From an uncultured Saccharospirillaceae bacterium (GTDB lineage: Bacteria > Pseudomonadota > Gammaproteobacteria > Pseudomonadales > Natronospirillaceae): DNA of 64,000 bases. The stretch lies in assembly GCA_913063165.1 (NCBI GenBank), contig CAJXZL010000001.1, positions 186,001 to 250,000 on the forward strand, given 5' to 3'. Position 1 is the stretch's first letter. Each line of letters opens with the position of its first letter. Positions 7,598 through 39,443 of the stretch are shown here, one piece after another. A program made the translations under genes and the position numbers. The notes below the pieces were generated by a model. That model searched no databases. It was given only the letters and a program-made list of their open reading frames with translations, and was not told the DNA's origin.

Positions 7598-10500
7598 ATG
7601 GAAGCCTGGCTTGTCTTTCTAGTCGCCGCTTTATACATCTGCTTGCTGTTTGCGATTGCCATTTTTGGCGATAAGAGTATTCGGCGTAGACGGATATTGC
7701 CGCCTGCTTTGGTCTACAGTCTGTCGCTTGCTGTGTACTGTACCTCATGGACCTACTATGGTGCCGTGGGCCGCGCTGCAGTATCGGGACTAGAGTACAT
7801 TGCGATTTACCTAAGCCCCATATTGCTGTTCCTATTCGGCACCCCTATGCTCAAGAAAATTGTGCGAACAGCCAAGCGACAAAACATTGCTTCTATTGCC
7901 GACTACCTGTCTTCGCGCTACGGCAAACGCAGTGGCATTGCCATGCTAGTGACCATCATTTCTACCCTGGCCATTATTCCTTATATCGCATTACAGCTAA
8001 AAGCCGTATCGACCAGTATTGAGGTACTGACCAAACCGATTGCCTCTGAGTGGGCGCCTATTTGGTTTAACGACACCACCATGCTGACATCGTTTGCGAT
8101 GATCCTATTCGCAATCCTGTTTGGAACCCGTCAGGTCGACGTCACCGAGCACCACCGTGGTCTTATTTTGGCAATCGCGTTCGAGTCATTGGTGAAGCTC
8201 ACCGCCTTATTGGCTATTGCAGTATTTGTGGTGTGGTTTCTGTTCAATGGCCCCGAAAATTTCTTAGAACAATTTAGAACCAACCCTCAGATTACCCAAA
8301 GCTTTGACAAACCCCTAGGCAGTGGCTTTTGGACTCAGGCGCTATTGGCTGCAGGTGCGATACTGTGTTTGCCGCGCCAGTTTCATATTATGGTGGTTGA
8401 AAACGTCAATATTCGCCATTTGAATACCGCGCGCTGGGTATTCCCGATCTACCTCATTCTCGTATCGCTGGTGGTCATTCCAATTACCAGCGCAGGTTTG
8501 CTGTTATTTCCCAACGGCGACGTGCCTGCTGATACCTTCGTACTGAATATCCCGTTGATATCGGGGCAGCGCTGGCTGTCGTTACTGGTCTTTATTGGCG
8601 GATTTTCAGCAGCAACAGCCATGGTGGTCATCGCTACCCTGTCGTTAAGTACCATGTTGAGTAACGACGTTATTTTGCCCATCGTTTTGCGCCTGCAGCA
8701 CCGGTGGACAACTGACCGTTTGGATATATCGGGCTTTCTGCTCTACGTCCGTCGTTTGTCGATAGCCTTTATTATTTTAGCGGGCTATTTTTACCACCGC
8801 TCTTATGGCACCAATGAACAGCTTTCAACCATTGGCCTCATTGCCTTTAGCTTGGTGATTCAGTTAACACCATCCCTATTGGCCGGCATTTATTGGAAGA
8901 AGGCCAATGCGTGGGGTGTCTATGCAGGCATCATCGGCGGCTTTATTGTCTGGTTTTACACCCTTATGCTGCCGACCTTGGTTCGCGGTGGTATTTTGCC
9001 GACCACCATTATGGACATGGGCGTGTTCGGTTGGGGTTGGCTAAAACCCGAACAGCTATTTCTCATCCCGATTAGCGACAGCCTCACCCATGGCGTATTT
9101 TGGTCTCTGTCAGTTAACATTCTTTTGTTGGTCATGGTGTCATCACGTGCACCCACTCGGTTGATCGACCGCCTACAGGCAGCCGCTTTTGTCGAACAAG
9201 CGGATGCGAGCCCCAGTACTATTGAAGCGGGCTTTAGACGTCAGAATGTGACCGTTTCAGACATGCGGAGCCTGTTGGAACAGTTTGCTGGCGTCAGACG
9301 CTCCGATCACTTGCTGACCGAGTTTGAACAATCCAATGGCATCAAACTCAACGAAAGCATCGCGCCTAAGATTAATTTGGTGCGCTATGTTGAACGCATA
9401 CTGTCCGGCATCATTGGCTCATCCTCTGCTCGGGCCATGGTGCACTCCGTATTACTGGGTCGGTCCTTAGCGATTGAAGACGTGGTTACCTTCTTCGATG
9501 AGACCACACAAGCACTGCAGTTTAACCAAAAACTGTTATCCACCACGCTCGAAAACATCGATCAGGGCGTGAGTGTGATCGACCGTGACATGCGCCTGGT
9601 AGCATGGAACCGACGATACCTTGAATTGTTTGATTATCCCGACGACTTTATTCGCAGTGGACGTCCTGTAGAAGACTTGGTGCGTTATAACGCCAACCGC
9701 GGTGAATGTGGTTCAGGCGATATTGAAGACCATGTCGAACGCCGCATGGAACACCTCCGTAAGGGCACACCTCACCGTTTTATCCGGGTGAGGAAGAATG
9801 GCACCGTTGTAGAAATGAAAGGCAATCCGTTGCCTGGCGGCGGCTTCGTGACGACGTTCAATGACATTACTGAGCATATTCGCGCCAAAGAGGCCCTACA
9901 ACACGCCAAGCAGCAGCTTGAGATTCGTGTCGACGAACGGACCCGTACCATTCAAGAAATGAACCACGAACTACGCGAAGAGATCGTGTACCGTGAAGAA
10001 GTAAAAACCCTCTTACTACAGGCCAAAGCCGAAGCCGAATCGGCGAACGCCTCAAAAACCCGTTTCCTCGCATTGGCTAGCCACGACATTTTGCAGCCAC
10101 TCAATGCTGCACGTCTGTATACCGCATCATTGATCGAGGACGAACTGTCTTCCGGGCAGAGCGCGGTGGTCTCAAAGTTAAACGACTCGTTACAGTCAAC
10201 TGAAGAATTAATCTCTACCCTGCTGGAGATTGCCCGCCTAGACGACGGTGCGTTACAGCCCAAGATAGAATCCTTTGCACTCAATGATATTCTTCGACCC
10301 TTGATTCAAGAATCACAGCTACTGGCGCAGGAACGTCACATTCGGTTGCGTTGGGTGCCCAATCACCTGTGGGTACATAGTGACCCCGTTTACCTGCGGC
10401 GTATTCTTCAGAACTTGATAACCAATGCCATTAAATACACCCCTAGTGGCACTGTACTGGTCGGTTGTCGCAAACGTGGCGCAGAGGTCAGTGTTCAAGT

Positions 10501-11143
10501 TATGGATACCGGCCCAGGAATTGCAGCAGCAGACCAGAAAAAAATCTTTAATGATTTCTACCGTATTTCTGGAAGCGCTGCGATTGCCAACGGGGTCGGC
10601 TTAGGCTTGGGTGTGGTATCCCGTTTGTCGGCACTGTTGGATCACCCCCTTGACCTGCACAGTGAATTTGGCAAAGGCTCGCAATTTAGCCTGCTGGTAC
10701 CCATTGGTATACCACGGGTATCGGAAGAAACCCTTTTTGAAGACAAGAGCGAAGTGGTTAATCCGCTGGCCGGTCTACGGGTGCTGTGTATCGATAACCA
10801 GCCTGAGAATTTGTTAGCGATTACATCGTTACTAGAACGGTGGGGCTGTTTGGTGACTGTGGCCACCCGTGGCGATGAGGCAAAGAAGGTACCCTGTCCA
10901 CAGTTTATCCTGATGGATTACCAACTCGATTTTGGCGAAAATGGCATCACCCTCTATGCCGACCTCTGTGAATTCTGGGCAGTCGACATTCCGGCGGTCT
11001 TGATCACTGCGAACGCTGAACAATCGATACGCCAACAGGCTCAAGAAGCCGGTATGGCCTATCTCAGAAAACCGGTAAAACCTGCGCCATTACGGGCGAC
11101 GATGACCCATCTGATTAGGCAAAACCCATTAGGTGACGATTAA
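7598..11143 (+). CDS. crbS: CrbS/MxtR-like hybrid histidine kinase with transporter-like sensor
   Basis: An 1181-residue membrane sensor kinase. Residues 1-510 form a multi-pass sodium/solute symporter (PutP-like) domain, followed by a linker, a PAS domain (about 648-765), a short coiled coil, a histidine kinase core with phosphoacceptor His829 in ASHDILQPL, an ATPase domain with N, G1 and G2 boxes (about 930-1045) and a C-terminal receiver with Asp1107 in LMDYQLD and a conserved lysine in LRKP. This architecture is that of CrbS (Vibrio), MxtR (Pseudomonas) and CbrA relatives. The likely partner response regulator and acs lie 1.4-4 kb downstream on the other strand, matching the CrbS/R control of acetyl-CoA synthetase. 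Whether the transporter domain moves a solute or only senses it is unknown. Confidence 0.88.
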   Translation: MEAWLVFLVAALYICLLFAIAIFGDKSIRRRRILPPALVYSLSLAVYCTSWTYYGAVGRAAVSGLEYIAIYLSPILLFLFGTPMLKKIVRTAKRQNIASIADYLSSRYGKRSGIAMLVTIISTLAIIPYIALQLKAVSTSIEVLTKPIASEWAPIWFNDTTMLTSFAMILFAILFGTRQVDVTEHHRGLILAIAFESLVKLTALLAIAVFVVWFLFNGPENFLEQFRTNPQITQSFDKPLGSGFWTQALLAAGAILCLPRQFHIMVVENVNIRHLNTARWVFPIYLILVSLVVIPITSAGLLLFPNGDVPADTFVLNIPLISGQRWLSLLVFIGGFSAATAMVVIATLSLSTMLSNDVILPIVLRLQHRWTTDRLDISGFLLYVRRLSIAFIILAGYFYHRSYGTNEQLSTIGLIAFSLVIQLTPSLLAGIYWKKANAWGVYAGIIGGFIVWFYTLMLPTLVRGGILPTTIMDMGVFGWGWLKPEQLFLIPISDSLTHGVFWSLSVNILLLVMVSSRAPTRLIDRLQAAAFVEQADASPSTIEAGFRRQNVTVSDMRSLLEQFAGVRRSDHLLTEFEQSNGIKLNESIAPKINLVRYVERILSGIIGSSSARAMVHSVLLGRSLAIEDVVTFFDETTQALQFNQKLLSTTLENIDQGVSVIDRDMRLVAWNRRYLELFDYPDDFIRSGRPVEDLVRYNANRGECGSGDIEDHVERRMEHLRKGTPHRFIRVRKNGTVVEMKGNPLPGGGFVTTFNDITEHIRAKEALQHAKQQLEIRVDERTRTIQEMNHELREEIVYREEVKTLLLQAKAEAESANASKTRFLALASHDILQPLNAARLYTASLIEDELSSGQSAVVSKLNDSLQSTEELISTLLEIARLDDGALQPKIESFALNDILRPLIQESQLLAQERHIRLRWVPNHLWVHSDPVYLRRILQNLITNAIKYTPSGTVLVGCRKRGAEVSVQVMDTGPGIAAADQKKIFNDFYRISGSAAIANGVGLGLGVVSRLSALLDHPLDLHSEFGKGSQFSLLVPIGIPRVSEETLFEDKSEVVNPLAGLRVLCIDNQPENLLAITSLLERWGCLVTVATRGDEAKKVPCPQFILMDYQLDFGENGITLYADLCEFWAVDIPAVLITANAEQSIRQQAQEAGMAYLRKPVKPAPLRATMTHLIRQNPLGDD

Positions 11144-11241
11144 TTCATTTGGCGGAAACGCTATCCCTTAGACTAGCATCGCATTGCGCAGTGCTGCCCA
11201 AGTCGATACGCTTCTTAATCCATTGCTAGGTAATCACGAAC

Positions 11242-12477
11242 ATGAAGTCAGATCTACGCCCCCTCATCCCCGTATTGGTAAGTGCTTGCTTACTGCTGAT
11301 GCTTTCATTCGGCTACCGTGCGGGCTTTGGACTCTTTGTTCGCCCCATTTCTGAAGCCAATGGTTGGGGCCGCGACATCATGTCCATGGCACTTGCCATA
11401 CAAAATCTTACCTGGGGTGTTGTCGCCGTGTTCGCTGGTGGTATTGCTGACAAATATGGCAACTTGCGGGTGCTGTTGGTGGGTGCAGCCTGCTACAGTG
11501 TGGGCATGATCGGCATGGCATATGCGGCCAATGAAACGGCTATGATTGTGACCGCAGGCATCATTGTCGGCTCGGGAATTTCAGGCACCGCTTTTGGTAT
11601 TGTTTTGCCAGCCTTGGCGCGCGCTGTGCCACCGGAACGCCGATCCTGGGCAATGGGTATTGGTACCTCGGCAGGCAGTTTCGGACAGTTTTTGGTCGTC
11701 CCCTTGATGGCCGAGGTACTGGATTTAACCGGTTGGTTTATGGCCTTGAATATCTTGGGAGCGTCTGCCCTATTAATGGCTTTGGTGGCCATTCCACTGG
11801 CGCCCTATGGCGGCCCCAGCAAACAGGTAGACAACCACGATACCTCCACACCACTTGTGACCATTTTCCGACGCGCGTGGAGTGAACGCTCCTACCGTTT
11901 ATTGGTCGCGGGCTTTTTCGTTTGTGGTTTCCACCTTGCTTTTATCACAGTGCACATGCCCGGTTATTTGGTGGACCTCGGATTTGACGCCAAAATCGGT
12001 GCCTGGAGTATCAGCCTAATCGGTTTATTTAATGTGCTCGGAGCTTACATTGCGGGGGTTATGAGCGATCGGTATTCCAAGGCCAGAATTCTCAGCCTGA
12101 TCTATTTCTCTCGCGCCATCGCGATTAGCTTATTCGTCCTATTACCCGTCACCCTCACCAGTATTATGATGTTTAGTGCTGCCATGGGCTTCTTATGGTT
12201 GGCAACAGTGCCACCTACCTCGGGATTGGTCGCGGTATTATTTGGTACCCGTTATATGGCGTTTTTATACGGTATCGTTTTTCTAAGCCATCAACTGGGT
12301 AGCTTTGGTGGTGTCTGGTTAGGCGGGTTCCTGTACGAGCGTTTCAATTCCTACGACGGTGTTTGGTATGTCGGTATCGTTTTGGGGTTATTGGCCGCGT
12401 TGATTCATTGGCCGATTCGTGAACACAGTGTCGAACAGTCTTTAATGAAGCCCGCTACGTCAGCAACCGTCGCTTAG
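11242..12477 (+). CDS. MFS transporter, monocarboxylate/OFA-like
   Basis: A 411-residue major facilitator protein with about twelve hydrophobic segments and a central cytoplasmic loop near residues 190-210. The motif between helices 2 and 3 reads GGIADKYGNLRV, a variant of the MFS A-motif, and a matching GVMSDRYSKAR follows helix 8. The N-terminal half resembles the YbfB/OFA/monocarboxylate branch. It lies between the CrbS-like kinase (about 100 bases upstream, same strand) and the convergent response regulator gene, so carboxylate uptake linked to the acetate switch is plausible but is inference. A strong bidirectional terminator ends it. Confidence 0.8.
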   Translation: MKSDLRPLIPVLVSACLLLMLSFGYRAGFGLFVRPISEANGWGRDIMSMALAIQNLTWGVVAVFAGGIADKYGNLRVLLVGAACYSVGMIGMAYAANETAMIVTAGIIVGSGISGTAFGIVLPALARAVPPERRSWAMGIGTSAGSFGQFLVVPLMAEVLDLTGWFMALNILGASALLMALVAIPLAPYGGPSKQVDNHDTSTPLVTIFRRAWSERSYRLLVAGFFVCGFHLAFITVHMPGYLVDLGFDAKIGAWSISLIGLFNVLGAYIAGVMSDRYSKARILSLIYFSRAIAISLFVLLPVTLTSIMMFSAAMGFLWLATVPPTSGLVAVLFGTRYMAFLYGIVFLSHQLGSFGGVWLGGFLYERFNSYDGVWYVGIVLGLLAALIHWPIREHSVEQSLMKPATSATVA

Positions 12478-12486
12478 TACAGACAT

Positions 12487-12515
12487 AAAAAAAGACCTCA
12501 ATGAGGTCTTTTTTT
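12487..12515. terminator. Bidirectional intrinsic terminator
   Basis: GACCTC and GAGGTC form a stem with a three-base loop, flanked by exactly seven A on the left and seven T on the right, so it gives a hairpin plus U-tract on both strands. It sits between the convergent MFS and crbR genes and serves both. Confidence 0.92.
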
Positions 12516-12541
12516 ACACCGTATGTGTCAGAAACCGGTCG

Positions 12542-13195
12542 TTATTGCTGGGCTGTTTGTTCGGGCAGTTTTAACTTAGACGCCAAAATCACGGCCTGTG
12601 TGCGGTTTTGAACGCCTAGCTTTCTGAAAATGGCGGTGATATGCGCCTTCACAGTGGCTTCAGAAATATGTAGGTCATAGGCAATTTGTTTGTTTAATCG
12701 CCCTTCGGTCAGGTGCATCAGCACCTTAAACTGCTGGTCAGTTAATGCAGCAACGCGCTTTGAAAAATCGGTTTCTTCACGAGACAGCCGCTCTACCGCG
12801 ACTTTAAGTGCCGGTGGCACCCAAACATCGCCAGCCAACACTGCTTTGATGCCATCGATAAACAAATGCGATGCACTGCTCTTGGGGATAAAACCCACTG
12901 CGCCATAGGCTATGGACCGCTGAATGATGGCAGGGTCTTCCATCGCAGAAATCACCACGATCGGCAAAGACGGATAGTGCTCACGCAAATGAATTAATCC
13001 AAAAAAACCTTCACTTCCCGGCATATTGAGGTCGAGCAACAAAACATCGGGTTCACCGGCACCGTCTATCAGTGTTTTTACCGTATCGATAGATTCTGCG
13101 GCATCTAGCTGATCCTTAGGGAACGCCGATCTCAAAGTGGTGGTCAGAGCATCTCTAAACAAAGGATGGTCGTCAGCAAGTATGAATTTCAACAT
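12542..13195 (-). CDS. crbR: LuxR/NarL-family response regulator, CrbR/ErdR-like
   Basis: A 217-residue two-domain regulator. The receiver has the acidic pair DD at residues 8-9, phosphoacceptor Asp55 in LLLDLNMPG and a lysine in PKSSASH. The C-terminal LuxR-type helix-turn-helix spans about residues 145-205 (LTEGRLNKQIAYDLHISEATVKAHI). It lies upstream of acs on the same strand and next to the CrbS-like kinase, which has no DNA-binding domain, so this is the probable output protein. In Vibrio and Pseudomonas the CrbR/ErdR relatives activate acs in acetate use. The gap of about 140 bases to the acs terminator contains no other gene. The pairing is inferred from synteny. Confidence 0.85.
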   Translation of the reverse strand: MLKFILADDHPLFRDALTTTLRSAFPKDQLDAAESIDTVKTLIDGAGEPDVLLLDLNMPGSEGFFGLIHLREHYPSLPIVVISAMEDPAIIQRSIAYGAVGFIPKSSASHLFIDGIKAVLAGDVWVPPALKVAVERLSREETDFSKRVAALTDQQFKVLMHLTEGRLNKQIAYDLHISEATVKAHITAIFRKLGVQNRTQAVILASKLKLPEQTAQQ

Positions 13196-13291
13196 GATGA
13201 ATAATGCGTCAATGACTAGTGAAACTTCATCCTATAGTGCAATGACGTGAGACTCAACTACGATGTGGGGTTCTACTGGACAAGATCAATA

Positions 13292-13321
13292 AAAGGCAGC
13301 GAAACACCGTTCGCTGCCTTT
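13292..13321 (-). terminator. Intrinsic terminator of acs
   Basis: A perfect 11-pair stem (AAAGGCAGCGA with TCGCTGCCTTT) around an eight-base loop. On the minus strand the descending arm runs into TTTTATT. It follows the acs stop by 15 bases. Confidence 0.88.
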
Positions 13322-13336
13322 ATCGATAGGAGACTA

Positions 13337-15283
13337 TTAGAGGTTTTGGCGGTTATCAATCAGCTCATCGACCACTGCTGGATCGGCTAATGTGGATGTA
13401 TCGCCTAATTCACCGTATTCATTGGCAGCAATTTTACGCAAGATGCGGCGCATAATTTTACCTGATCGGGTCTTAGGAAGCCCTGGCGTCCACTGGATAT
13501 GATCTGGTGTCGCGATAGGACCAATCTCTTTACGCACCCAAGCCACCAACTCTTTGGTCAATTCGTCGTCAGCGTAAATACCCGCCATTGGCGTGACATA
13601 CACATAGATGCCCTGACCCTTCATGTCATGAGGATAACCGACCACTGCGGCTTCTGCCACGCTGGGGTGGGCAACCAAAGCACTTTCAATTTCCGCTGTA
13701 CCCAAACGGTGGCCAGACACGTTTAATACGTCATCGACCCGGCCGGTAATCCAATAGTAACCATCCTCGTCACGGCGCACACCGTCACCGGTAAAGTACT
13801 TGCCGTCATAGGTGCTAAAATAGGTTTGAACAAAGCGTTCGTGATCACCGTAAATCGACCGCATCTGCCCCGGCCAAGAATCGACTATCACCAAGTTGCC
13901 TTCACCAGCACCCTCAACGACGCCACCTTCAGCATCCACCAATTGTGGTTGTATCCCAAAGAATGGGCGGGTCGCAGAACCAGGCTTTAGTGCAGTAGCG
14001 CCTGGTAGTGGCGTGATCATAATGCCGCCTGTTTCTGTCTGCCACCAGGTATCCACGATGGGACAACGTGACTCACCGAATTTCTTGTAATACCACTCCC
14101 ACGCTTCTGGGTTGATGGGCTCGCCCACAGAACCGAGTAAACGCAGGCTGCTACGCTTACTGCTGCGCGTGGCTTCATCACCTTTACTCATTAGGGTGCG
14201 AATGGCCGTTGGCGCCGTGTATAGGATGTTCACTTGGTGCTTATCAATCACCTGGCCCATACGACCACTGTCTGGATAGGTTGGAATACCCTCAAACATC
14301 AGGGTGGTCGCACCGTTCGCTAGTGGCCCATAAACGATATACGAATGACCTGTGACCCAACCCACGTCGGCTGCGCACCAGTAAATGTCGCCATCGTGAT
14401 AATCAAACACATACTGGTGGGTCATTGAGGCATAGACCAAATAGCCGCCGGTGGTGTGCAACACGCCTTTAGGGGTGCCCGTTGAACCAGAGGTGTAAAG
14501 AATAAATAAGGGGTCTTCCGCATTCATGGGCTCTGGCGCGCACTCAAGTGAGGCGTTTTCAGTAGCGTCGTGATACCACACGTCGCGACTCGAATCCCAA
14601 TCGATAGCACCGCCGGTGCGTTTCACAACCAAGACATGGGTCACACAATCGATTGATGGGTGTTCCAGTGCCTTGTCAACGTTGGCTTTTAAGGCTACTG
14701 CTTTGGTGCCGCGCAAACCTTCGTCAGCCGTTATAATCAATTTGGAATCGCAGTCGATGATACGGCCAGCCAATGCTTCTGGTGAAAACCCACCAAATAC
14801 GATGGAGTGAATCGCACCGATGCGTGCGCACGCCAACATCGCGTAGGCCGCTTCAGGAATCATCGGCATGTACAGGGTCACGCGATCGCCTTTGGTCACA
14901 CCCATATCTTTCATCGCGTTAGCCAATTTACAGACTTCCGCATGCAGGCTGTTGTATGAAATGGTCTTATCGACGGACGGGTCATCGCCTTCCCAAATAA
15001 TGGCGGCTTGTTCACCACGGTCGGCAAGATGACGGTCAATACAGTTGTAAGACACGTTGGTCACACCATCAGCAAACCAACGGATGTGCAGGTCACTCTT
15101 ATCGAAACTCACGTCCTTAACAGTCGTATAGGGCTGGAACCATTCAATTCGCTTGCCCATGTCGCCCCAGAACGCTTCGTTGTCTTCAACAGACCGTTTG
15201 TACAATGCCAAATAGGTGTCGTTGTCTATAAATGCCTTTTTCTGAAACGCTTCAGAAACGGGATATACGGCGGAATCGGTCAT
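13337..15283 (-). CDS. acs: Acetyl-coenzyme A synthetase
   Basis: A 648-residue AMP-forming acetate:CoA ligase that activates acetate for the TCA and glyoxylate cycles. The P-loop-like [12 protein letters not shown] lies near residue 265, the WWQTETGG acyl-pocket motif near 410 and the catalytic, acetylation-controlled lysine in TRSGKIMRR at residue 609, the same number as in Salmonella Acs. An in-frame TTG lies two codons upstream, but the AGAGG ribosome-binding site is six bases from the ATG chosen here and touches the TTG. The upstream region carries a TGCAAC direct repeat that may bind the neighbouring CrbR-like regulator. Identification is secure. Confidence 0.97.
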
Positions 15284-15341
15284 GGTCAACCTCTAGTAAT
15301 ATGAATCGGAAAAGAGAAGGCGGCAACAATGTCCGCGGTTA

Positions 15342-31028: not shown

Positions 31029-31739
31029 ATGACATCCAACTTTAAAAAGCTGGCATTGAGCACAGCAGTGGCGTTTGCCGCATTTTCTGCAAGCGTTAAC
31101 GCGAGTGCAGCTGAAGAAGTAAAACCTGTACTACTTAAGACACCTATCGCATTCGGTAGCCACCTTCCTGCACTGGGCACCCCTATTAAATGGGTATCTG
31201 AGCAGTTGGAAGTGGTGTCTAACGGCACAGTAATGATGAAGATTTATGAGCCAAGTAAACTGGTTGCACCATTTGAAATTCTTGATGCTGTTTCAACCGG
31301 TAAAGTAAACTCTGGTTACGCGATTGCTGGATACTGGGATGGCAAAATGCCTGCAGCTTCCATTTTCTCTACCGTACCCTTTGGCCCTGAAGCGCCAGAA
31401 TTTATGGCATGGATGTATTACGGCAATGGTTTGAGCCTGTACCAAGAAATGTATGACACTGCCGGCTACAACGTAAAAGTGCTGCCTTGTGCCATCATTG
31501 CACCTGAAACTTCTGGTTGGTTTAAAGAAGAGATCAATTCACTTGAAGACTTTAAAGGCCTTAACATTCGCTTTTACGGCTTAGGCGGCAAGGTACTTGA
31601 AAAGCTAGGCGCTTCTGTGTCTCTGCTTCCAGGCGGCGAAATCTTTGGCGCACTTGAAAAAGGCGCAATCGATGCAACTGAATTCTCAATTGTTCAATCG
31701 CGCCGTAAAATGTCCACGAGGTACAGACCGTGGAAATAG
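31029..31739 (+). pseudogene. TRAP transporter solute-binding protein, 3' truncated (2-oxoacid/lactate type)
   Basis: The ATG has a GGAG ribosome-binding site and the encoded signal peptide (LALSTAVAFAAFSASVNASA) is intact. The mature part matches DctP-family binding proteins of the TakP/lactate group (FGPEAPEFMAWMYYGNGLSLYQEM, PCAIIAPETSGWF, LEDFKGLNIRFYGLGGKVLEKLG, GALEKGAIDATEFS). Homology stops near base 31690, after about 220 residues of a family usually about 330-370 long; the remaining frame (SRRKMSTRYRPWK) is antisense sequence of a histidine kinase gene. The C-terminal lobe is missing, and the dctQ/dctM membrane genes expected downstream are absent. Codon use looks like that of a highly expressed gene. 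The product is unlikely to bind ligand. Confidence 0.85.
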
Positions 31740-31863
31740 ACAGGGTGTAGACCACCGGTTGCCACCGTTTGGATGCAGCTTTACGGTCGCCGCGTCTGGC
31801 CACAAAAAATAGCAAGGCAATGTAAGCGAACGAAAAAAACGTAACCACTATGGGTGTGAGCAT
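31697..31863 (-). pseudogene. N-terminal remnant of a second CrbS-like sensor kinase
   Basis: From an ATG with AGGA seven bases upstream, the first 55 codons encode a membrane-spanning start (MLTPIVVTFFSFAYIALLFF) and VVYTLSISTVCTSWTFYGA, which aligns with VYSLSLAVYCTSWTYYGAVG at the start of the full-length kinase at 7598-11143. After FYGA the frame runs into antisense sequence of the TRAP binding-protein gene. More than 90% of the kinase is therefore missing. The fragment starts 31 bases beyond the dld stop, so the intact gene would have been the last gene of the lactate operon. Product non-functional as a kinase. Confidence 0.8.
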
Positions 31864-31894
31864 GACCGATCCTATATGACGTCTGTTCAGCCCA

Positions 31895-34699
31895 CTATCG
31901 ACTGGCTTCTTCTATTAAATACAGCAGACTTTGAAATGACAGACCGCCGTGGCGTGACAAACCAATTTCACAGGTGCGACTGGTCGAGTAGCCACTGTCA
32001 CAGCCAACGGCCTGCGCTTTTAAGGTTTGCAATGCCGACGCATTGAGCTCGGGTTGTGTAAAACCCTTGTCTCCGGCGAAGCCGCAACATTCAATATTGT
32101 GTGGCACGACGACATAGTCAGCACATCGTTGGGCAACCTGTAGGCTAATCTCTGACAAACCACTGCGTTTCGCTGAACAGGGTACGTGAAGCACCACCGT
32201 TTTGGGTAGTGACTTTATCGGCAACTTGGGAATTAACACCTCCGCCGCAAAGGTCATACTGTCCATCAGCGGTACAGCCGATTCCGACAGGCGCAAGGCA
32301 CAGGGGGACGTGTCAGACACAATGGTCATTCCTTGATCAATATAGGGCTGCAATACAGCCACTAATGCATCTTGAGACTGAGCGGCTTGCTCTGGAAACC
32401 CCTTGCTGGCAAAGGGTTGGCCACAGCAGACATCACCAATGCCTGAAGGGACATGCAATTGAATCCCTGCCCGTTCGGCAAGCTGTAATACGACATCCAT
32501 TTGACTTTGTTGGTGCGGGTCTGCCTTGGCTGGCCCCATCACCTGACTGACACAACTTGGCCAATAGACAAACGCCTGAGCGCCGTCTATAGGTGCCTGA
32601 GTGGCGGGTTTTCGGGTATTTTTAGCACGACGCGGCATCGCATCGGTCCAGAGGGGTACCGCCTTTCGCGTCACCCGATTCAGCACCTGCGTGGTCTTGG
32701 TGAGTAGGTTTGTACCCATGATGTCGTGTGCGGTCTGGGCTACTTGAATGCCAATCGCTGCTGTTTTTATCAGGGTAGGCAGATGAGCAACCGCCCATTG
32801 CGCCTTCCGCTGGTGCTTACTATTGGCTATCTGCCGCTGCTGTTTCACCAAATCACCCGTATTGATGCCAACTGGGCAACGGGCTGCACACATGCCGGTT
32901 GCAGCACAGCTATCTAACCCTTCAGACCAATAACTGTCTTGTAACTCTTTTAATAATGCCGGTTGTTCTCCCGTGTTGGTCAAACGGGATATCTCACGCC
33001 ACAACGCAATACGCTGCCTCGGCGTGTAAGTCAGATTTTTGCTCGGACAGACAGTTTCACAAAATCCACATTCGATACATTTATCAATTAAGGGATTGGC
33101 AGCAGGCAGGTCTTTGAGGTTCTTGATGTGTACATTCGGATCGTCATTCAAAATCACACCAGGATTCAGAAGATTGGAGGGATCCAGTAACTGTTTGATG
33201 CGTTTCATCAGCTGATAGGCATCCTCGCCCCACTCTAACGAGACGAAGGGCGCCATATTGCGACCCGTGCCATGTTCCGCTTTGAGTGAACCACCAAATT
33301 CGACAGCCACCAAATAGGTCACATCGGTCATAAAGGCTTCATACCGATCGCGATCTTGTTGCGTGGCAAAACTCTGTGAAAAGACAAAATGCAGATTGCC
33401 CTCAAGCGCATGACCAAAAATGAACGCATCGTCATAGCCGTGGGTATCGAAGCACGCTTGGAGTCGCTCGACCCCAGCAGCCAAATCCGCCATAGGAAAG
33501 GCGACATCTTCAATGACCACTGTGGTGCCTGTGTCTCTCACCGCACCCAGAGCCGGAAATAGCCCCTTACGGAAACCCCACAACTGCTCGTAGTGGTCGG
33601 GGTCAGTTGAGAAGCCACTGTCTGCAACCACGTCATGTGCTGCCAAACCGCTAGAAATAAGCGCGGCGTTGATAGCCAACTCGTCGGCAGTTTCCCCTCG
33701 CACATCAATTAACAAGGCAGCGGCGCCATCGGGTAACTGGCCAATAAATGCCGGCACTGAGGGATGATGGGCAGTGGCCTTTATGCCACGAGAGTCGATC
33801 AATTCCACTGCTGACACGGGTAAGGCTTTTAATGCCTGTACCGCCGCACAGCAGCTCCCAATGGTGGTAAATCCAACCAAAATGGCGGATTTAAAAGGCG
33901 CATCCGATACCGTGTGGTAGGCGATATCGGCAATAAAGCCCAACGTCCCTTCCGATCCCACCATCAGGTGACTGAGGACATCAATGGGATCTTCAAAGTC
34001 TATCAAGGCATTGAGACTGTAGCCCGTGGTGTTTTTAATCCGATATTTGTGCCGAATTTTGTCCACCAACACTGGGTCGGCATGTGTGTCCGCCATGATC
34101 TTAGACAGTGCGGCCAACAATTCAGCCTGATGGTGTTTGAACGATGAGACCGATGCTGGATCCCGGGTATCAATCAGGGTGCCATCAGCCAAAATCATGC
34201 GAAGACCTGCCATGGTGTGATAGGTATTTTGGGCGGTACCACAACACATGCCGCTGGCATTGTTGGCTACAATGCCGCCGATCTTGCAGCTATTGATAGA
34301 AGCAGGGTCAGGTCCTATCTTTCGACCAAATGGTGCCAGTGCGCGATTGGCATGAGCGCCAATCACCCCGGGATTCAAGTGCACCACATGGCCGTCTTGC
34401 TCAATACGAATATCTTGCCAACCTGCACCTAACAGCATCAGCACGCTGTCTGTTACCGCCTGACCCGATAAACTGGTGCCTGCCGCCCGAAAGGTAACGG
34501 ACACGTCATGTTCGGCTGCTAGGGATAAAATCGCCCGCACCTGTGCTTCGTCATTCGCTTGCACAACCACGGCGGGGGTTAGACGATAAAAGCTGGCATC
34601 GGTACCATAAGCAAATCGGTGTGGCGCATCCCGCCACTGAATAATGTCTGGGTGCTGCCGTTCTAAGGCCTGGGTGAAATGTTCTACGGCTTTTTGCAT
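31895..34699 (-). CDS. dld: FAD/Fe-S D-lactate dehydrogenase (Dld-II type)
   Basis: A protein of about 934 residues: a vanillyl-alcohol-oxidase-type FAD domain (about 30-200; FRAAGTSLSGQAV, MVGSEGTLGFIADI), an FAD-oxidase C-terminal domain to about 470, two 4Fe-4S motifs (CIECGFCETVCPSKN and CAATGMCAARCPVG, about 530-620) and a cysteine-rich CCG domain pair at the C-terminus (DVCCGQPFASKGF, NIECCGFAGDKGF). This is the Dld-II architecture of Shewanella, encoded beside lldEFG, oxidising D-lactate to pyruvate with electrons to the quinone pool. The frame can also start at TTG two codons upstream, next to the lldG stop; ribosome-binding sequence does not decide. Glycolate or another 2-hydroxyacid is an alternative substrate. 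Confidence 0.87.
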   Translation of the reverse strand: MQKAVEHFTQALERQHPDIIQWRDAPHRFAYGTDASFYRLTPAVVVQANDEAQVRAILSLAAEHDVSVTFRAAGTSLSGQAVTDSVLMLLGAGWQDIRIEQDGHVVHLNPGVIGAHANRALAPFGRKIGPDPASINSCKIGGIVANNASGMCCGTAQNTYHTMAGLRMILADGTLIDTRDPASVSSFKHHQAELLAALSKIMADTHADPVLVDKIRHKYRIKNTTGYSLNALIDFEDPIDVLSHLMVGSEGTLGFIADIAYHTVSDAPFKSAILVGFTTIGSCCAAVQALKALPVSAVELIDSRGIKATAHHPSVPAFIGQLPDGAAALLIDVRGETADELAINAALISSGLAAHDVVADSGFSTDPDHYEQLWGFRKGLFPALGAVRDTGTTVVIEDVAFPMADLAAGVERLQACFDTHGYDDAFIFGHALEGNLHFVFSQSFATQQDRDRYEAFMTDVTYLVAVEFGGSLKAEHGTGRNMAPFVSLEWGEDAYQLMKRIKQLLDPSNLLNPGVILNDDPNVHIKNLKDLPAANPLIDKCIECGFCETVCPSKNLTYTPRQRIALWREISRLTNTGEQPALLKELQDSYWSEGLDSCAATGMCAARCPVGINTGDLVKQQRQIANSKHQRKAQWAVAHLPTLIKTAAIGIQVAQTAHDIMGTNLLTKTTQVLNRVTRKAVPLWTDAMPRRAKNTRKPATQAPIDGAQAFVYWPSCVSQVMGPAKADPHQQSQMDVVLQLAERAGIQLHVPSGIGDVCCGQPFASKGFPEQAAQSQDALVAVLQPYIDQGMTIVSDTSPCALRLSESAVPLMDSMTFAAEVLIPKLPIKSLPKTVVLHVPCSAKRSGLSEISLQVAQRCADYVVVPHNIECCGFAGDKGFTQPELNASALQTLKAQAVGCDSGYSTSRTCEIGLSRHGGLSFQSLLYLIEEASR

Positions 34700-34705
34700 C
34701 GTCAA

Positions 34706-35347
34706 TTATTCAACCACCATCACTAATAAGCGTTTCGGGCCATGTGCCCCATAGGCTAAAGTTTGTTGTATGTCGGCCGTTTTTGACGGTCCGGTAATCA
34801 TCAGTACATTGGTATGTTCCGCGCATGCCGGATAGCGCCGTATCCATTCCTCAAATCGTCCAACCACCGATGACAGATGCACCACCACCAGATGGATCGG
34901 CGGCACCAGACTCATGGTTCTTGGCTCGTGCTGATCAGGGATCAAGGCGATGGTGCCTGTTTCAAATAATGCGCTGTGACTACTGGTGACTGCCAATCCA
35001 ATGTCATGAAACACCTGAGCCCGGTCTTGATCCATGGGTGCCTGCGGATCAACCCAGACAGCATCCTTGGGTTTGCGTTTCCATAATTGCTGTCCCAATG
35101 CAGAGGTCTGTGACACCCACTGCTGCTGCGCGCCTATGTCAGTCATCCAATCGACTACCGCCTGTGGCATCGACTCTGCATCACAGGAACGCACTTCGGC
35201 ATGGGTCTCTGAAAGCCGCTCGATAAATTGCGCCCTAAGGTTGTCTGTTGGCAACGGGTAAGGCACGTCGGCGGCGGCTTGGGTTGCTACCGGCTGGCGA
35301 AAGACACCGGCTTTTAGGCGGGACAATATGGCTGCTCGTGCTGTCAT
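34706..35347 (-). CDS. lldG: L-lactate utilisation protein LldG (LutC)
   Basis: A 213-residue LUD-domain protein, subunit of the LldEFG (LutABC) L-lactate dehydrogenase complex. The start MTARAAILSRLKAG is typical, and the LUD core carries ALFETGTIALIPDQHEPRTMSLVPPIHLVVV and MITGPSKTADIQQTLAYGAHGPKRLLVMVV. The ATG overlaps the lldF stop (ATGA), so the longer upstream frame inside lldF is not used. It is cotranscribed with lldE, lldF and dld. It has no iron-sulphur motif of its own. Confidence 0.93.
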   Translation of the reverse strand: MTARAAILSRLKAGVFRQPVATQAAADVPYPLPTDNLRAQFIERLSETHAEVRSCDAESMPQAVVDWMTDIGAQQQWVSQTSALGQQLWKRKPKDAVWVDPQAPMDQDRAQVFHDIGLAVTSSHSALFETGTIALIPDQHEPRTMSLVPPIHLVVVHLSSVVGRFEEWIRRYPACAEHTNVLMITGPSKTADIQQTLAYGAHGPKRLLVMVVE

Positions 35348-36717
35348 GATGCCGCTCCCGACTGGACACCCTTTTTGGGACGCGCAGCCATTTTCTGACC
35401 AAGGGATTGATGGGATAACGCTGGCGCAGCACGGTGTCGTGTCCATCCACCGAGCCATTTCGGTAACAGTGGATACAGCCGCAACATCAGCCCTAGGCTC
35501 ATGCGATACACACGTGGATGGCGGTTGAACATTGACCAGAATCGCCATATCCATTGTTCTCGCCGTGGCAGTGTTGCCTGAGCACGGTGATCTAGTAACA
35601 AATCGGTGATGGGTATGCCTACGGGGCAGACGGTGTGACAAGCGCCACAAAGAGTGGATGCCTTTGGATGATCGGGCGTGTCCGGCAGACTGGTTAAATG
35701 TGGAGACAATATTTTACCGATGGGCCCAGGATAGGTGGTGTTATAGGCATGGCCGCCTATTCTGGTATACACCGGACAGTGATTCATACAGGCACCACAG
35801 CGAATACATTGCAAACTTTCCTGCTGCCGTTCCTTTTGATAGAGCTGGCTCCGGCCATTGTCTAACAACACCAGATGCACAGCGCGCGGGCCATCGCGTT
35901 CTTCGGGCTTGCGAGGACCATGGATCCAGTTAACGTATGTGGTGATGGGTTGCCCCGTTGCACTGCGGGTTAATACGCGAATCAGTTTGGGCACATCCGC
36001 AAGGTGCGCGACCACTTTTTCGATCCCAGTGATCGCCACATGGACATCGGGTGCGGTGGTGCTCAATCGCCCATTGCCTTCGTTCTCCACCAGACACAGG
36101 GTACCCGTATCCGCGGCAATAAAGTTGACGCCACTGAGTCCTATACCTGCCTGTTCAAATTCGGTGCGTAATTGCTCACGTCCAATCGCAATCAATTCAT
36201 CAACATCAAGGGTGTAGGGCACATCCAGATGCGCTTGAAATAGCGCAGCTATGTCTTCCTTGGATTTATGGATCGCTGGCATAATAATATGCGAGGGCGT
36301 CTCGCCGGCTAATTGCACAATGAACTCACCCATATCGGTCTCTACAGCGCGCAATCCATGGGCTTCCAAATGGTGGTTCAGATAAATTTCTTCACTGACC
36401 ATGGACTTGCCTTTCACCATGGTCGTGGCCTGCGTATCCAACATGATCTGATGAATGGTCGCCTGCGCTTCCTCTATGGTTTCTGCCCAATGCACCTGTA
36501 TGCCATTCGCAACCATGGCCGCTTCAGCCTGTTCCAACAAGGCCGGCAGATTGCTCAGGGCTGCTTGCTTCAACTGTTTGGATTGCACACGTAATCGTTC
36601 AAAATCGTCGGAGTCAGGAAATTGTTGGGCGCGCTTATCAATCAAATAATCCATCGCCGGTCGAAATGATGGCTCGCGGGGATTATCCAGAATGCGTATC
36701 GGTGTGGCTTCAGTCAT
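35344..36717 (-). CDS. lldF: L-lactate utilisation iron-sulphur protein LldF (LutB)
   Basis: A 457-residue protein with an N-terminal LUD domain (about 65-300; NFIAADTGTLCLVENEGNGRL) and two 4Fe-4S motifs, CIRCGACMNHCPVY and CGACHTVCPVGIP, near residues 310-375, followed by a hydrophobic helical tail. It carries electrons within the LldEFG complex that oxidises L-lactate to pyruvate. The chosen ATG has GGGAG six bases upstream and overlaps the end of lldE by eight bases; the in-frame extension upstream lies inside lldE. Order lldE-lldF-lldG is that of Shewanella, Campylobacter and Bacillus relatives. Confidence 0.95.
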   Translation of the reverse strand: MTEATPIRILDNPREPSFRPAMDYLIDKRAQQFPDSDDFERLRVQSKQLKQAALSNLPALLEQAEAAMVANGIQVHWAETIEEAQATIHQIMLDTQATTMVKGKSMVSEEIYLNHHLEAHGLRAVETDMGEFIVQLAGETPSHIIMPAIHKSKEDIAALFQAHLDVPYTLDVDELIAIGREQLRTEFEQAGIGLSGVNFIAADTGTLCLVENEGNGRLSTTAPDVHVAITGIEKVVAHLADVPKLIRVLTRSATGQPITTYVNWIHGPRKPEERDGPRAVHLVLLDNGRSQLYQKERQQESLQCIRCGACMNHCPVYTRIGGHAYNTTYPGPIGKILSPHLTSLPDTPDHPKASTLCGACHTVCPVGIPITDLLLDHRAQATLPRREQWIWRFWSMFNRHPRVYRMSLGLMLRLYPLLPKWLGGWTRHRAAPALSHQSLGQKMAARPKKGVQSGAAS

Positions 36718-37480
36718 GACGATCTCCCAAGACAATATCCCGTACCAGTGTCGCAATGTGCTCACCCTGCAAGGCATCTTGCCGCTTGGCCAATTTGCCA
36801 TTGATGTTCATCAAGCACGCACAATCACTGCTGACGATTCTTTCAGCTTGGGTTGCCAACAATGCATCGCACTTGTCGGTCACCATCGCATTGGAAATAT
36901 CAGGATATCGAACCGAGAAGGTGCCGCCAAAACCACAGCATTCAGTCGCGTGATCAGCGGTAACCACCTGCACCTGCTCCCAGTGTCCTAAGACCGACTC
37001 GGTGGCCGTACGGGTATTTGTTTCGCGTTGTGCGCTACAGGCGGTATGCACAACGACCTTCACCGGGGTTGCATTGCGGCTGACCAATGGCGGGCAACTG
37101 GCCAAAAACTCCATCCATTCTACTGCGCGACTCGATACGTCAATCGCGAGCCCATGGTCGGGATCAGGTGCAGCAAACAATTGGGTATAGTGGTGCCGAA
37201 ACATGCCCGTGCATGAGCCGGACAGTACGACGATAGGCCAGGGTTCTGGAAACAACCGTAATTGTGCGCGGGCAACTGCTCGCGCCTGCTCAGTAGCGCC
37301 AGAGGTCATCGCCGGTTGGCCACAACAGGTTTGTTGTTCTGGGTAATGGACCCGTATGCCCATAGACTCGAGGACAGCGATCGCATCCATACCAGCATCG
37401 GCAAATGCGACGTCAACGATACAGGTGCCGAAAACATAAACATCGGCAGGAATGGCGGCTTGTTTGGAGGTTTGTTTCAT
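36710..37480 (-). CDS. lldE: L-lactate utilisation protein LldE (LutA)
   Basis: A 256-residue protein with two CCG domains: YVFGTCIVDVAFADAG and QQTCCGQPAMTSG in the first, VVVHTACSAQRE and ATECCGFGGTFSVRYPDIS in the second, as in heterodisulfide-reductase-like cysteine-rich proteins that hold an unusual 4Fe-4S cluster. First gene of the lldEFG-dld operon. The upstream 140-base divergent region contains TTGGAC-N17-TACAGT on the minus strand, a plausible sigma-70 promoter. No lldR-type regulator gene is next to the operon, so control is from elsewhere, or by the truncated kinase that once ended it. Confidence 0.93.
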   Translation of the reverse strand: MKQTSKQAAIPADVYVFGTCIVDVAFADAGMDAIAVLESMGIRVHYPEQQTCCGQPAMTSGATEQARAVARAQLRLFPEPWPIVVLSGSCTGMFRHHYTQLFAAPDPDHGLAIDVSSRAVEWMEFLASCPPLVSRNATPVKVVVHTACSAQRETNTRTATESVLGHWEQVQVVTADHATECCGFGGTFSVRYPDISNAMVTDKCDALLATQAERIVSSDCACLMNINGKLAKRQDALQGEHIATLVRDIVLGDRHD

Positions 37481-37621
37481 CGGTGAAAACTCTTTTTAAA
37501 TACTGTATGCAAACATCCATTAACGTCCAATGGTTCTTTAGTATTACAGACCCTTTTGACAATTAGGGTTATGGTGGCATCTGGCGTTGTTATTCTACTT
37601 TCTATTGGTTGGAACTCTTCC

Positions 37622-38500
37622 ATGTTCGACATTTTTCTCAGCATTATTGCCCCGATATTCCTCATCATTTTGCTGGGCGGTGCTTACCGCGCAATAAAGC
37701 CGGTTAAAATTGAAGCCATCAACCAAGTAAACATGGATGTATTCACGCCAGCGTTAATTATATCAGCCTTAGCGAAACCCTTTCCGAGTGATATGGCATT
37801 TGGTCCTTTTTTGATCGCAGCCGCTGTCATCGTGTTACTACCCGGGTTACTCACGCTCCCCATTTTAAAGCCATTGGGCTGGAACTTAAAAACCATTGTG
37901 CCACCGATGATGTTCCGCAACTCCGGCAACCTTGGCATTCCATTGTTGGTATTCGCTTTTGGGCCCGATATCCTGCCCATCGCGATCATGCTGTTTTTAG
38001 TCGAAAACACCTTGCATTTCACACTCGGCATGGCACTTATTCAAGGCCGCATAAACCCGCTGTCATTGCTCAAAATGCCTATGATTCAAGCCACGATCAT
38101 CGGCTTATCATTGGCCTATTTTCAGGTCGACCTGCCGATGTGGGCGATGCGTTTTCTTGAGCTCACCGGTCAGGTTGCGATTCCTTTGATGTTGTTTACG
38201 CTGGGTATCCGCATGCTTGATATCGATTTGTCAGCGTGGCGTTTTGGATTTATTGGCGCTGGATGGACCTTAGTCACTGGGATTGTGGCATTTTTACCGA
38301 TCTATTTCTTTTTCGATCTGAGCGACCAACAGCTCAATATCTTGCTGTTATTTGCCCTACTGCCGCCAGCCGTATTGAATTATCTGGTGGCCGAGCGCTT
38401 TAACATTGAACCCACTAAGGTGGCGACGCTCGTACTGTTTACCAATGCGCTCTGTGTTTTATGGATGCTGCCCGCATTGTCTTGGGTCCTGGCACCCTAG
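37622..38500 (+). CDS. AEC-family permease
   Basis: A 292-residue membrane protein with about ten hydrophobic helices arranged as two repeats, of the auxin efflux carrier/bile-acid-sodium symporter-like AEC family. The conserved MMFRNSGNLGIPLLVFAFG of helix 4 and LLFALLPPAVLNYLVAERFNIEPTKVATLVLFTNALCVL near the C-terminus identify it. Some AEC members carry dicarboxylates or malate. It is divergent from the lactate operon, so organic acid transport is a fair inference. The ATG chosen has GGAA eight bases upstream; a longer frame from 37556 is less likely. Confidence 0.85.
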   Translation: MFDIFLSIIAPIFLIILLGGAYRAIKPVKIEAINQVNMDVFTPALIISALAKPFPSDMAFGPFLIAAAVIVLLPGLLTLPILKPLGWNLKTIVPPMMFRNSGNLGIPLLVFAFGPDILPIAIMLFLVENTLHFTLGMALIQGRINPLSLLKMPMIQATIIGLSLAYFQVDLPMWAMRFLELTGQVAIPLMLFTLGIRMLDIDLSAWRFGFIGAGWTLVTGIVAFLPIYFFFDLSDQQLNILLLFALLPPAVLNYLVAERFNIEPTKVATLVLFTNALCVLWMLPALSWVLAP

Positions 38501-38660: not shown

Positions 38661-39443
38661 GTGTTAACTTCAAAAGCAGCGCTCATTACCGGATCAACCA
38701 GTGGTATTGGCCTCGCCATTGCACAGGCGTTAGCCGCCAATGGATGCAACATTGTGTTAAATGGCCTAGGCGATCCCACAGCCATTGAACAAACACGCAG
38801 CCACATGGCCCGTGAATATGGCGTATCGGTATTCTATCATGGTGCAGATTTGTCACAGTCTGACGAGATCGAAGCAATGATGGCTTATGCTGAAGACCAG
38901 CTGGGTGGCATCGATATTTTGGTGAATAATGCGGGCATCCAGCACGTGGCATTGACTGAAGACTTTCCGGTTGAGAAATGGAACGCCATTATTGCCATCA
39001 ACATGAATTCCAACTTTCATACCACCCGACTCGCATTGCCTGGTATGAAGCGTAAAAATTGGGGCCGTATCATCAACATTGCTTCTGCCCATGGCTTGGT
39101 GGGCTCAGCCCAGAAGTCGGCTTATGTCACTGCCAAACACGGTGTTGTGGGCTTTACCAAGGTAACGGGTTTGGAGACGGCAAAAACCGGCATCACCGTC
39201 AATGCTATCTGCCCTGGCTGGGTAAGAACCGAACTGGTTGAAAAACAGATTGCTGCGCGCGCAACAGCTGACAACATTTCGGTGGAGGCCGCAGCGACCT
39301 CACTGTTAGTGGAGAAGCAACCGTCTTTGCAGTTTGTTACGCCTGCCGCTTTAGCGGATACGGCCTTGTTCTTATGCGGATCCAGTGCAGATCAAATTAC
39401 CGGTACCACCATTTCGATGGATGGCGGTTGGACTGCGCAATAA
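38661..39443 (+). CDS. bdhA: D-3-hydroxybutyrate dehydrogenase (SDR family)
   Basis: A 260-residue NAD-dependent short-chain dehydrogenase. TGSTSGIG (residues 10-17) binds cofactor, NNAGIQH follows strand 4, and the catalytic Ser (IASAHGLVGS), Tyr and Lys (YVTAKHG) are in place. GIQHVALTEDFPVEKWNAIIAINMNSNFHTTR and ICPGWVRTELVEKQI are close to 3-hydroxybutyrate dehydrogenases of poly-hydroxybutyrate or ketone-body metabolism, which give acetoacetate. The start is GTG, with AAGGA seven bases upstream. It stands alone, ended by a terminator that overlaps the convergent channel gene. Confidence 0.88.
   Translation: MLTSKAALITGSTSGIGLAIAQALAANGCNIVLNGLGDPTAIEQTRSHMAREYGVSVFYHGADLSQSDEIEAMMAYAEDQLGGIDILVNNAGIQHVALTEDFPVEKWNAIIAINMNSNFHTTRLALPGMKRKNWGRIINIASAHGLVGSAQKSAYVTAKHGVVGFTKVTGLETAKTGITVNAICPGWVRTELVEKQIAARATADNISVEAAATSLLVEKQPSLQFVTPAALADTALFLCGSSADQITGTTISMDGGWTAQ

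Follow-up and report, generated by a model that had tools for sequence, protein, structure and literature searches.

Deletion-made gene remnants, i.e., pseudogenes, occur in bacterial genomes. The locus described here, located in a window of 64,000 nucleotides (the whole stretch of DNA that was analysed), contains parts of two functional systems. The first is represented by TRAP substrate-binding proteins of the DctP family (PF03480), which the 5' part of a dctP gene (31029..31688, plus strand) resembles in residues 1–220 of about 355, its 3' part being missing; for a full-length relative (P0005), the nearest solved structures are 7ug8 (a ketoacid-binding protein), 4pet, and 2hzk, found with E-values between 1e-54 and 5e-53. 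Unlike in DctP-family systems, similarity to the family is lost here at residue 220, and neither dctQ nor dctM follows downstream. The second system comprises CrbS and RpuS, which are presented as SLC5/STAC sensor kinases in PMC9100948. CrbS-like kinases with PAS, HisKA, HATPase, and receiver domains are matched here in their first 58 residues, whereas about 5% of the kinase remains.

Two truncated genes and their join

Searching the ORF starting at 31029 against Pfam revealed DctP with an E-value of 5.6e-22 (profile positions 19–180 of 286), while the same ORF scored under both NCBIfam cut-offs. Further comparison was based on the best 80 of 154 GTDB loci encoding a relative. In this set, the BLAST match ended at residue 220 in 79 cases and at residue 221 in one, placing the end of the family match at Ser220 (codon 31686–31688); an earlier sequence-only reading, in which the dctP homology stopped near 31690, was borne out in this point (base 31688). 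The full-length substrate-binding protein expected of a functional DctPQM transporter is not encoded, since only the first 220 of about 355 residues of the product follow the family. We also looked for family members that naturally end at the break: 79 of the best 80 relatives do not, with 349–368 residues from the aligned start, and even the shortest (about 272 residues, L058 by calculation) runs about 52 residues beyond it. This short frame (L058:8-847, an Amphritea MAG) is nonetheless followed by dctQ and dctM. Past the join, the sequence deviates from the family at residue 221, and of the eight subsequent columns with a conservation of at least 95%, six deviate as well. At the DNA level, five plasmid records gave a match; three of them (H1–H3) stopped at query positions 737–740, corresponding to 31687–31690 of the window, H4 stopped earlier, and the match of H5 was to the dehydrogenase gene.

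On the minus strand, homology revealed the 5' tip of a CrbS-like hybrid sensor kinase gene (31690..31863), comprising 58 codons from an ATG at 31863, with an AGGA, read by eye, upstream of it. The 100-residue ORF as a whole showed no Pfam or NCBIfam match at E ≤ 0.001. With a query of 59 residues, the matches ended at residue 58 in 12 of 13 non-self rows of a first table and at residue 56 in the other one, and in a second table of seven rows at residue 59 (three), 58 (three), and 54 (one); with 69 residues, 11 of 13 ended at residue 58, one at 62, and one at 56. The family match runs to about Gln58 (codon 31692–31690), i.e., three residues past the FYGA motif directly after which, near 31697, the match was previously proposed to stop. 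This motif was also said to occur in the paralogue at 7598, which in fact has YYGA at that place. The tip was 40–61% identical to 20 aligned rows (L036 and L132 being the same gene), the best rows coming from genomes of its own family, and a 56-residue stretch of the tip was matched at E ≤ 0.001 in 191 of the order's 293 genomes, among them the own genome. In view of these matches and of the E-value of 5.6e-22 for DctP, chance similarity of the two stumps was rejected. A transporter-like domain joined to HisKA/HATPase is not encoded, just the 58 N-terminal residues being present. Pfam SSF scored 22.5 against a cut-off of 22.8 in the kinase of a relative (P0006) and was not listed for the 7598 paralogue (P0003); the label "CrbS-like" rests mainly on overall similarity, and the SLC5 label is tentative. 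The paralogue itself lies in a cluster (7598–15289) together with an MFS-type permease, a LuxR-type response regulator, and an acetyl-CoA synthetase-like gene, an arrangement that may be as expected of a CrbS/R acetate switch, judged from names given by eye with the kinase alone searched.

The two stumps are joined at 31687..31690, a position with a precision of a few bases: dctP ends at about 31688 and the kinase at about 31690, so that about 1 base, give or take a few, separates the two families. HMMER alignments overran the join, reaching 31684 or 31687 for the kinase and 31709 for dctP, and MAFFT on DNA aligned nine more dctP-like bases beyond a 9-base gap at this place. As proposed earlier, each frame then continues into the antisense of the other gene, namely for 16 codons to a stop at 31737–31739 in the dctP frame (31689..31739, plus strand) and for 42 codons to a stop at 31563–31561 in the kinase frame (31561..31689, minus strand). 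Since the overlap of the two homologies at the join does not exceed a few bases, the event may have been blunt or mediated by microhomology. No direct repeats were found within 31400–32000, where three inverted pairs all lie left of the join, a scan that cannot reveal repeats in the ends that were lost. Scans for promoters and terminators gave signals at the level of shuffled sequences. The exact junction sequence had no match in viral_contigs, and among 38 genomes compared the own genome alone showed a DNA match across the join.

With regard to constraint, the dctP stump was changed at seven of the 114 positions that at least 95% of the relatives have in common, compared to a median of 0 among the best 80 of 154, where L117 alone has at least seven such changes (15). 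This is a weak hint of relaxed constraint and may be due instead to divergence of this dctP, which is among the most divergent sequences with a nearest-neighbour identity of 0.83 (0.76 for L117). Its product is up to 81% identical to proteins of Oceanospirillaceae, about 70% to those of Vibrio, and at most 48% to those of the compared genomes of its own family. The third-position GC of dctP is the lowest among the 43 ORFs of at least 200 codons in the window and, taken with the pattern of relatives, may reflect foreign origin or high expression.

Missing parts and neighbouring genes

The assembly to which the window belongs is a draft of 2.55 Mb in 112 contigs with a completeness rated at 98.12%. 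Within these 112 contigs, the full-length relative P0005 matched the stump and a full-length dctP paralogue of 36% identity on contig C6, and outside this paralogue the 3' part of dctP was not found. A cognate dctM was likewise not found in the assembly, the best match in the genome (46%) belonging to the C6 transporter; conservation to be expected of dctM is 65–81%, which is the identity of two query proteins to those of four relatives. In this second TRAP system (G000 contig C6, and also L037:7530-10776), dctP is divergent from dctQM.

The remainder of the kinase was not found in the assembly either, using the 7598 paralogue and the kinase of a relative as queries. These detected the 7598 gene, a 1046-residue kinase on contig C51 (28–29%), the tip, and kinases matching in the histidine-kinase/receiver part only. 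Two candidates for the remainder were examined and rejected. A 458-residue kinase on contig C28 begins with MDLS directly behind a stop codon, its similarity being confined to the histidine-kinase and receiver part, and a match on C52 covers 142 residues of the transporter-like part alone, within a 578-residue frame, as found with the 7598 paralogue. The missing parts of both genes are thus absent from this draft of 112 contigs. At the locus itself, neither dctQ nor dctM is encoded, as a functional DctPQM would need, and about 5% of the kinase is left, in agreement with the earlier statement that both genes and more than 90% of the kinase are absent.

Directly beyond the kinase start, a gene for an FAD-linked oxidase with a 4Fe-4S domain (31895..34705, minus strand; GlcD/GlpC-like, with scores under the NCBIfam cut-offs) ends 31 bases ahead of it, and because of this short distance the kinase seems to be the terminal gene of the FAD/Fe-S operon. 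It is accompanied by lutC, lutB, and lutA (34706..37480, minus strand), assigned via Pfam as LUD domain, LutB/LldF-like, and CCG, respectively; the LutB/LldF-like gene reached 433.6 bits with TIGR00273, slightly under the cut-off of 444.8. Only 75 bases separate lutA from an ORF for an AEC-type (Mem_trans) permease (37556..38500, plus strand), and a gene for 3-hydroxybutyrate dehydrogenase (PHB_DH) is located at 38661..39443 (plus strand). Genes 49–52% identical to the latter directly precede dctP in four relatives' loci (L051, L052, L055, L109).

Corresponding loci in relatives

In the best 80 of 154 loci, dctQ follows dctP in 79, L109 ending 47 bases past dctP; dctM is present in 75 and in all 73 with at least 2 kb downstream. 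A CrbS-like kinase gene is located upstream of dctP in divergent orientation in 11 of the 80, a count that looked upstream of dctP only, kinases elsewhere being taken from a separate gene list. The FAD/Fe-S gene occurs in 24 of these 80 loci, each time on the dctP strand (24/24), the AEC permease in 19, and both together in 13. With flanks of at most 10 kb, shorter in some loci, a lut gene was the best match of no ORF in the 80. Genomes of the own family revealed further combinations: G006 carries dctPQM-lutABC-FAD/Fe-S on one strand, G012 dctQM-lutABC-FAD/Fe-S up to the contig end, and G005 lutABC-FAD/Fe-S with no dct gene within the 19 kb covered. A comparison of cca within the family (42–50%) was of no help.

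Synteny, proposed earlier as a check for an intact dctPQM and kinase at this place, gave a mixed answer, in that related modules do lie near dctP in relatives, while the intact convergent order is present in none of those compared, among which there was no congener. A dctPQM module facing a kinase gene followed by the FAD/Fe-S gene was found in 0 of the best 80 of 154 loci and in 0 of 20 stretches of other genomes. The one kinase-like ORF situated shortly downstream of dctPQM and convergent with it, in L047, has 433 residues and matches the histidine-kinase part only. In six own-family genomes, the kinases closest to the tip (up to 61%) are preceded by a gene for an acyl-CoA synthetase, compared to identities of only up to 48% for dctP-linked kinases. 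No close counterpart of this synthetase was seen in the own genome, the best match by E-value being 30% identical.

As separate observations, a CrbS-like hybrid kinase divergent to dctPQM was seen in L038, L040–L048, and L056 (Bermanella, Thalassolituus, Oceanobacter, and others), so a TRAP-linked CrbS/RpuS-like system may recur in these bacteria. Beside the divergent kinase of L043, an ORF at 5513–6136 resembles a response regulator by eye, and in L046:6241-9704 (Thalassolituus alkanivorans) the dctP-adjacent kinase is split into two overlapping frames by an apparent frameshift.

Origin of the join

We favour a deletion scar, to which we assign a probability of roughly 0.6: a single interval would have been lost between codon 220 of dctP and about codon 58 of the kinase gene. 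The ancestor would have carried a dctPQM module beside a lutABC / FAD-Fe-S dehydrogenase operon ending in a CrbS-like kinase gene, and one deletion would have removed the 3' part of dctP, dctQ, dctM, and about 95% of the kinase. Judged from gene sizes in relatives, this would amount to about 5.6 kb or more (dctP about 0.4 kb, dctQ 0.55 kb, dctM 1.4 kb, and the kinase 3.3 kb). After such a deletion the membrane part of the transporter would be absent, and truncated proteins of 236 and 100 residues would be possible products, neither of which should work as a receptor or kinase. Counting against a single deletion, the convergent order required is unseen in the relatives compared, where the FAD/Fe-S gene lies on the dctP strand in 24 of 24 cases; the tip is nearer to acyl-CoA synthetase-linked than to dctP-linked kinases; and none of the ORFs in the best 80 of 154 loci was matched best by a lut gene. 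The sequence-only reading had left a large deletion, an inversion in the lactate region, and an assembly chimera side by side. The double truncation and the lactate setting held up, and of the three a deletion is the most probable.

The orientation of the FAD/Fe-S gene, which is on the dctP strand in relatives (24/24, and also in G006) and on the opposite strand here, would be explained by an inversion that, in an originally colinear dctPQM/lutABC/FAD-Fe-S arrangement, broke dctP and the kinase and joined their 5' parts head on, the second junction being lost later. With the convergent ancestral order seen in no compared locus, this is a serious rival, but it is less likely than one deletion, since the assembly yielded no second junction and the gap between lutA and the AEC permease gene is only 75 bases, so that a second event must have removed everything; an inversion plus a deletion also means two events versus one.

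An assembly artefact, with two intact genes merged or the stretch between them passed over, is slightly less probable again. Neither stump contains a stop or frameshift ahead of the join, which fits a misassembly of intact genes, as do the draft state of the assembly (112 contigs in 2.55 Mb) and a neighbourhood order matched by no compared relative. On the other hand, the displaced halves are on no other contig despite the completeness of 98.12%, and homologies sharing a few bases at most offer no long shared stretch to mislead an assembler. The larger number of conserved-site changes in the dctP stump than in all but one of the best 80 of 154 relatives also argues weakly against an artefact.

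Composition is alike on either side of the join, as the window's two halves correlate at 0.864 in their tetranucleotide signatures. Nine stretches of other genomes (14–21 kb, lengths not matched) gave 0.09–0.59 with either half, while pieces of the own genome (6–16 kb) gave 0.45–0.79 and the 8 kb on each side of the join 0.62, from which short pieces appear to be noisy in this test. A cross-species chimera is not supported by composition, though the third-position GC of dctP is the lowest of 43 ORFs. Of the chimera once proposed, the version with different organisms is thus disfavoured by composition, and the one made from remote regions of a single genome by the neighbourhood theme common to both ends. 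Both ends have partners known from such neighbourhoods, for which a random chimera offers no explanation. Since relatives carry such modules near dctP, in varying sets, and the two halves share an oligonucleotide signature, a real local rearrangement is favoured.

That the truncated genes are retained and used, e.g., as a secreted half receptor or a short membrane peptide, is very improbable: the frames are open to the join and their starts are in place, but the receptor would lack about its last 135 residues and any membrane subunits, each tail is merely the antisense sequence of the opposite gene, and some conserved positions are changed. It is just as hard to credit that the join is fixed in the population, with both stumps and their mutually antisense 3' tails kept for a new role in the lactate region.

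Returning to the deletion scar, its importance would be modest. If real, the organism lost TRAP uptake together with the neighbouring sensor and kept the lactate-oxidation genes and the AEC-type permease. For annotation, both ORFs should be marked as remnants, and the name dctP should not be used here to predict a TRAP transporter. As in deletion-made pseudogenes, two open 5' stumps are joined without filler; nothing notable differs from these, both genes here happening to face each other. The outcome is an ordinary broken-gene scar, i.e., a gene loss, and not a new system.
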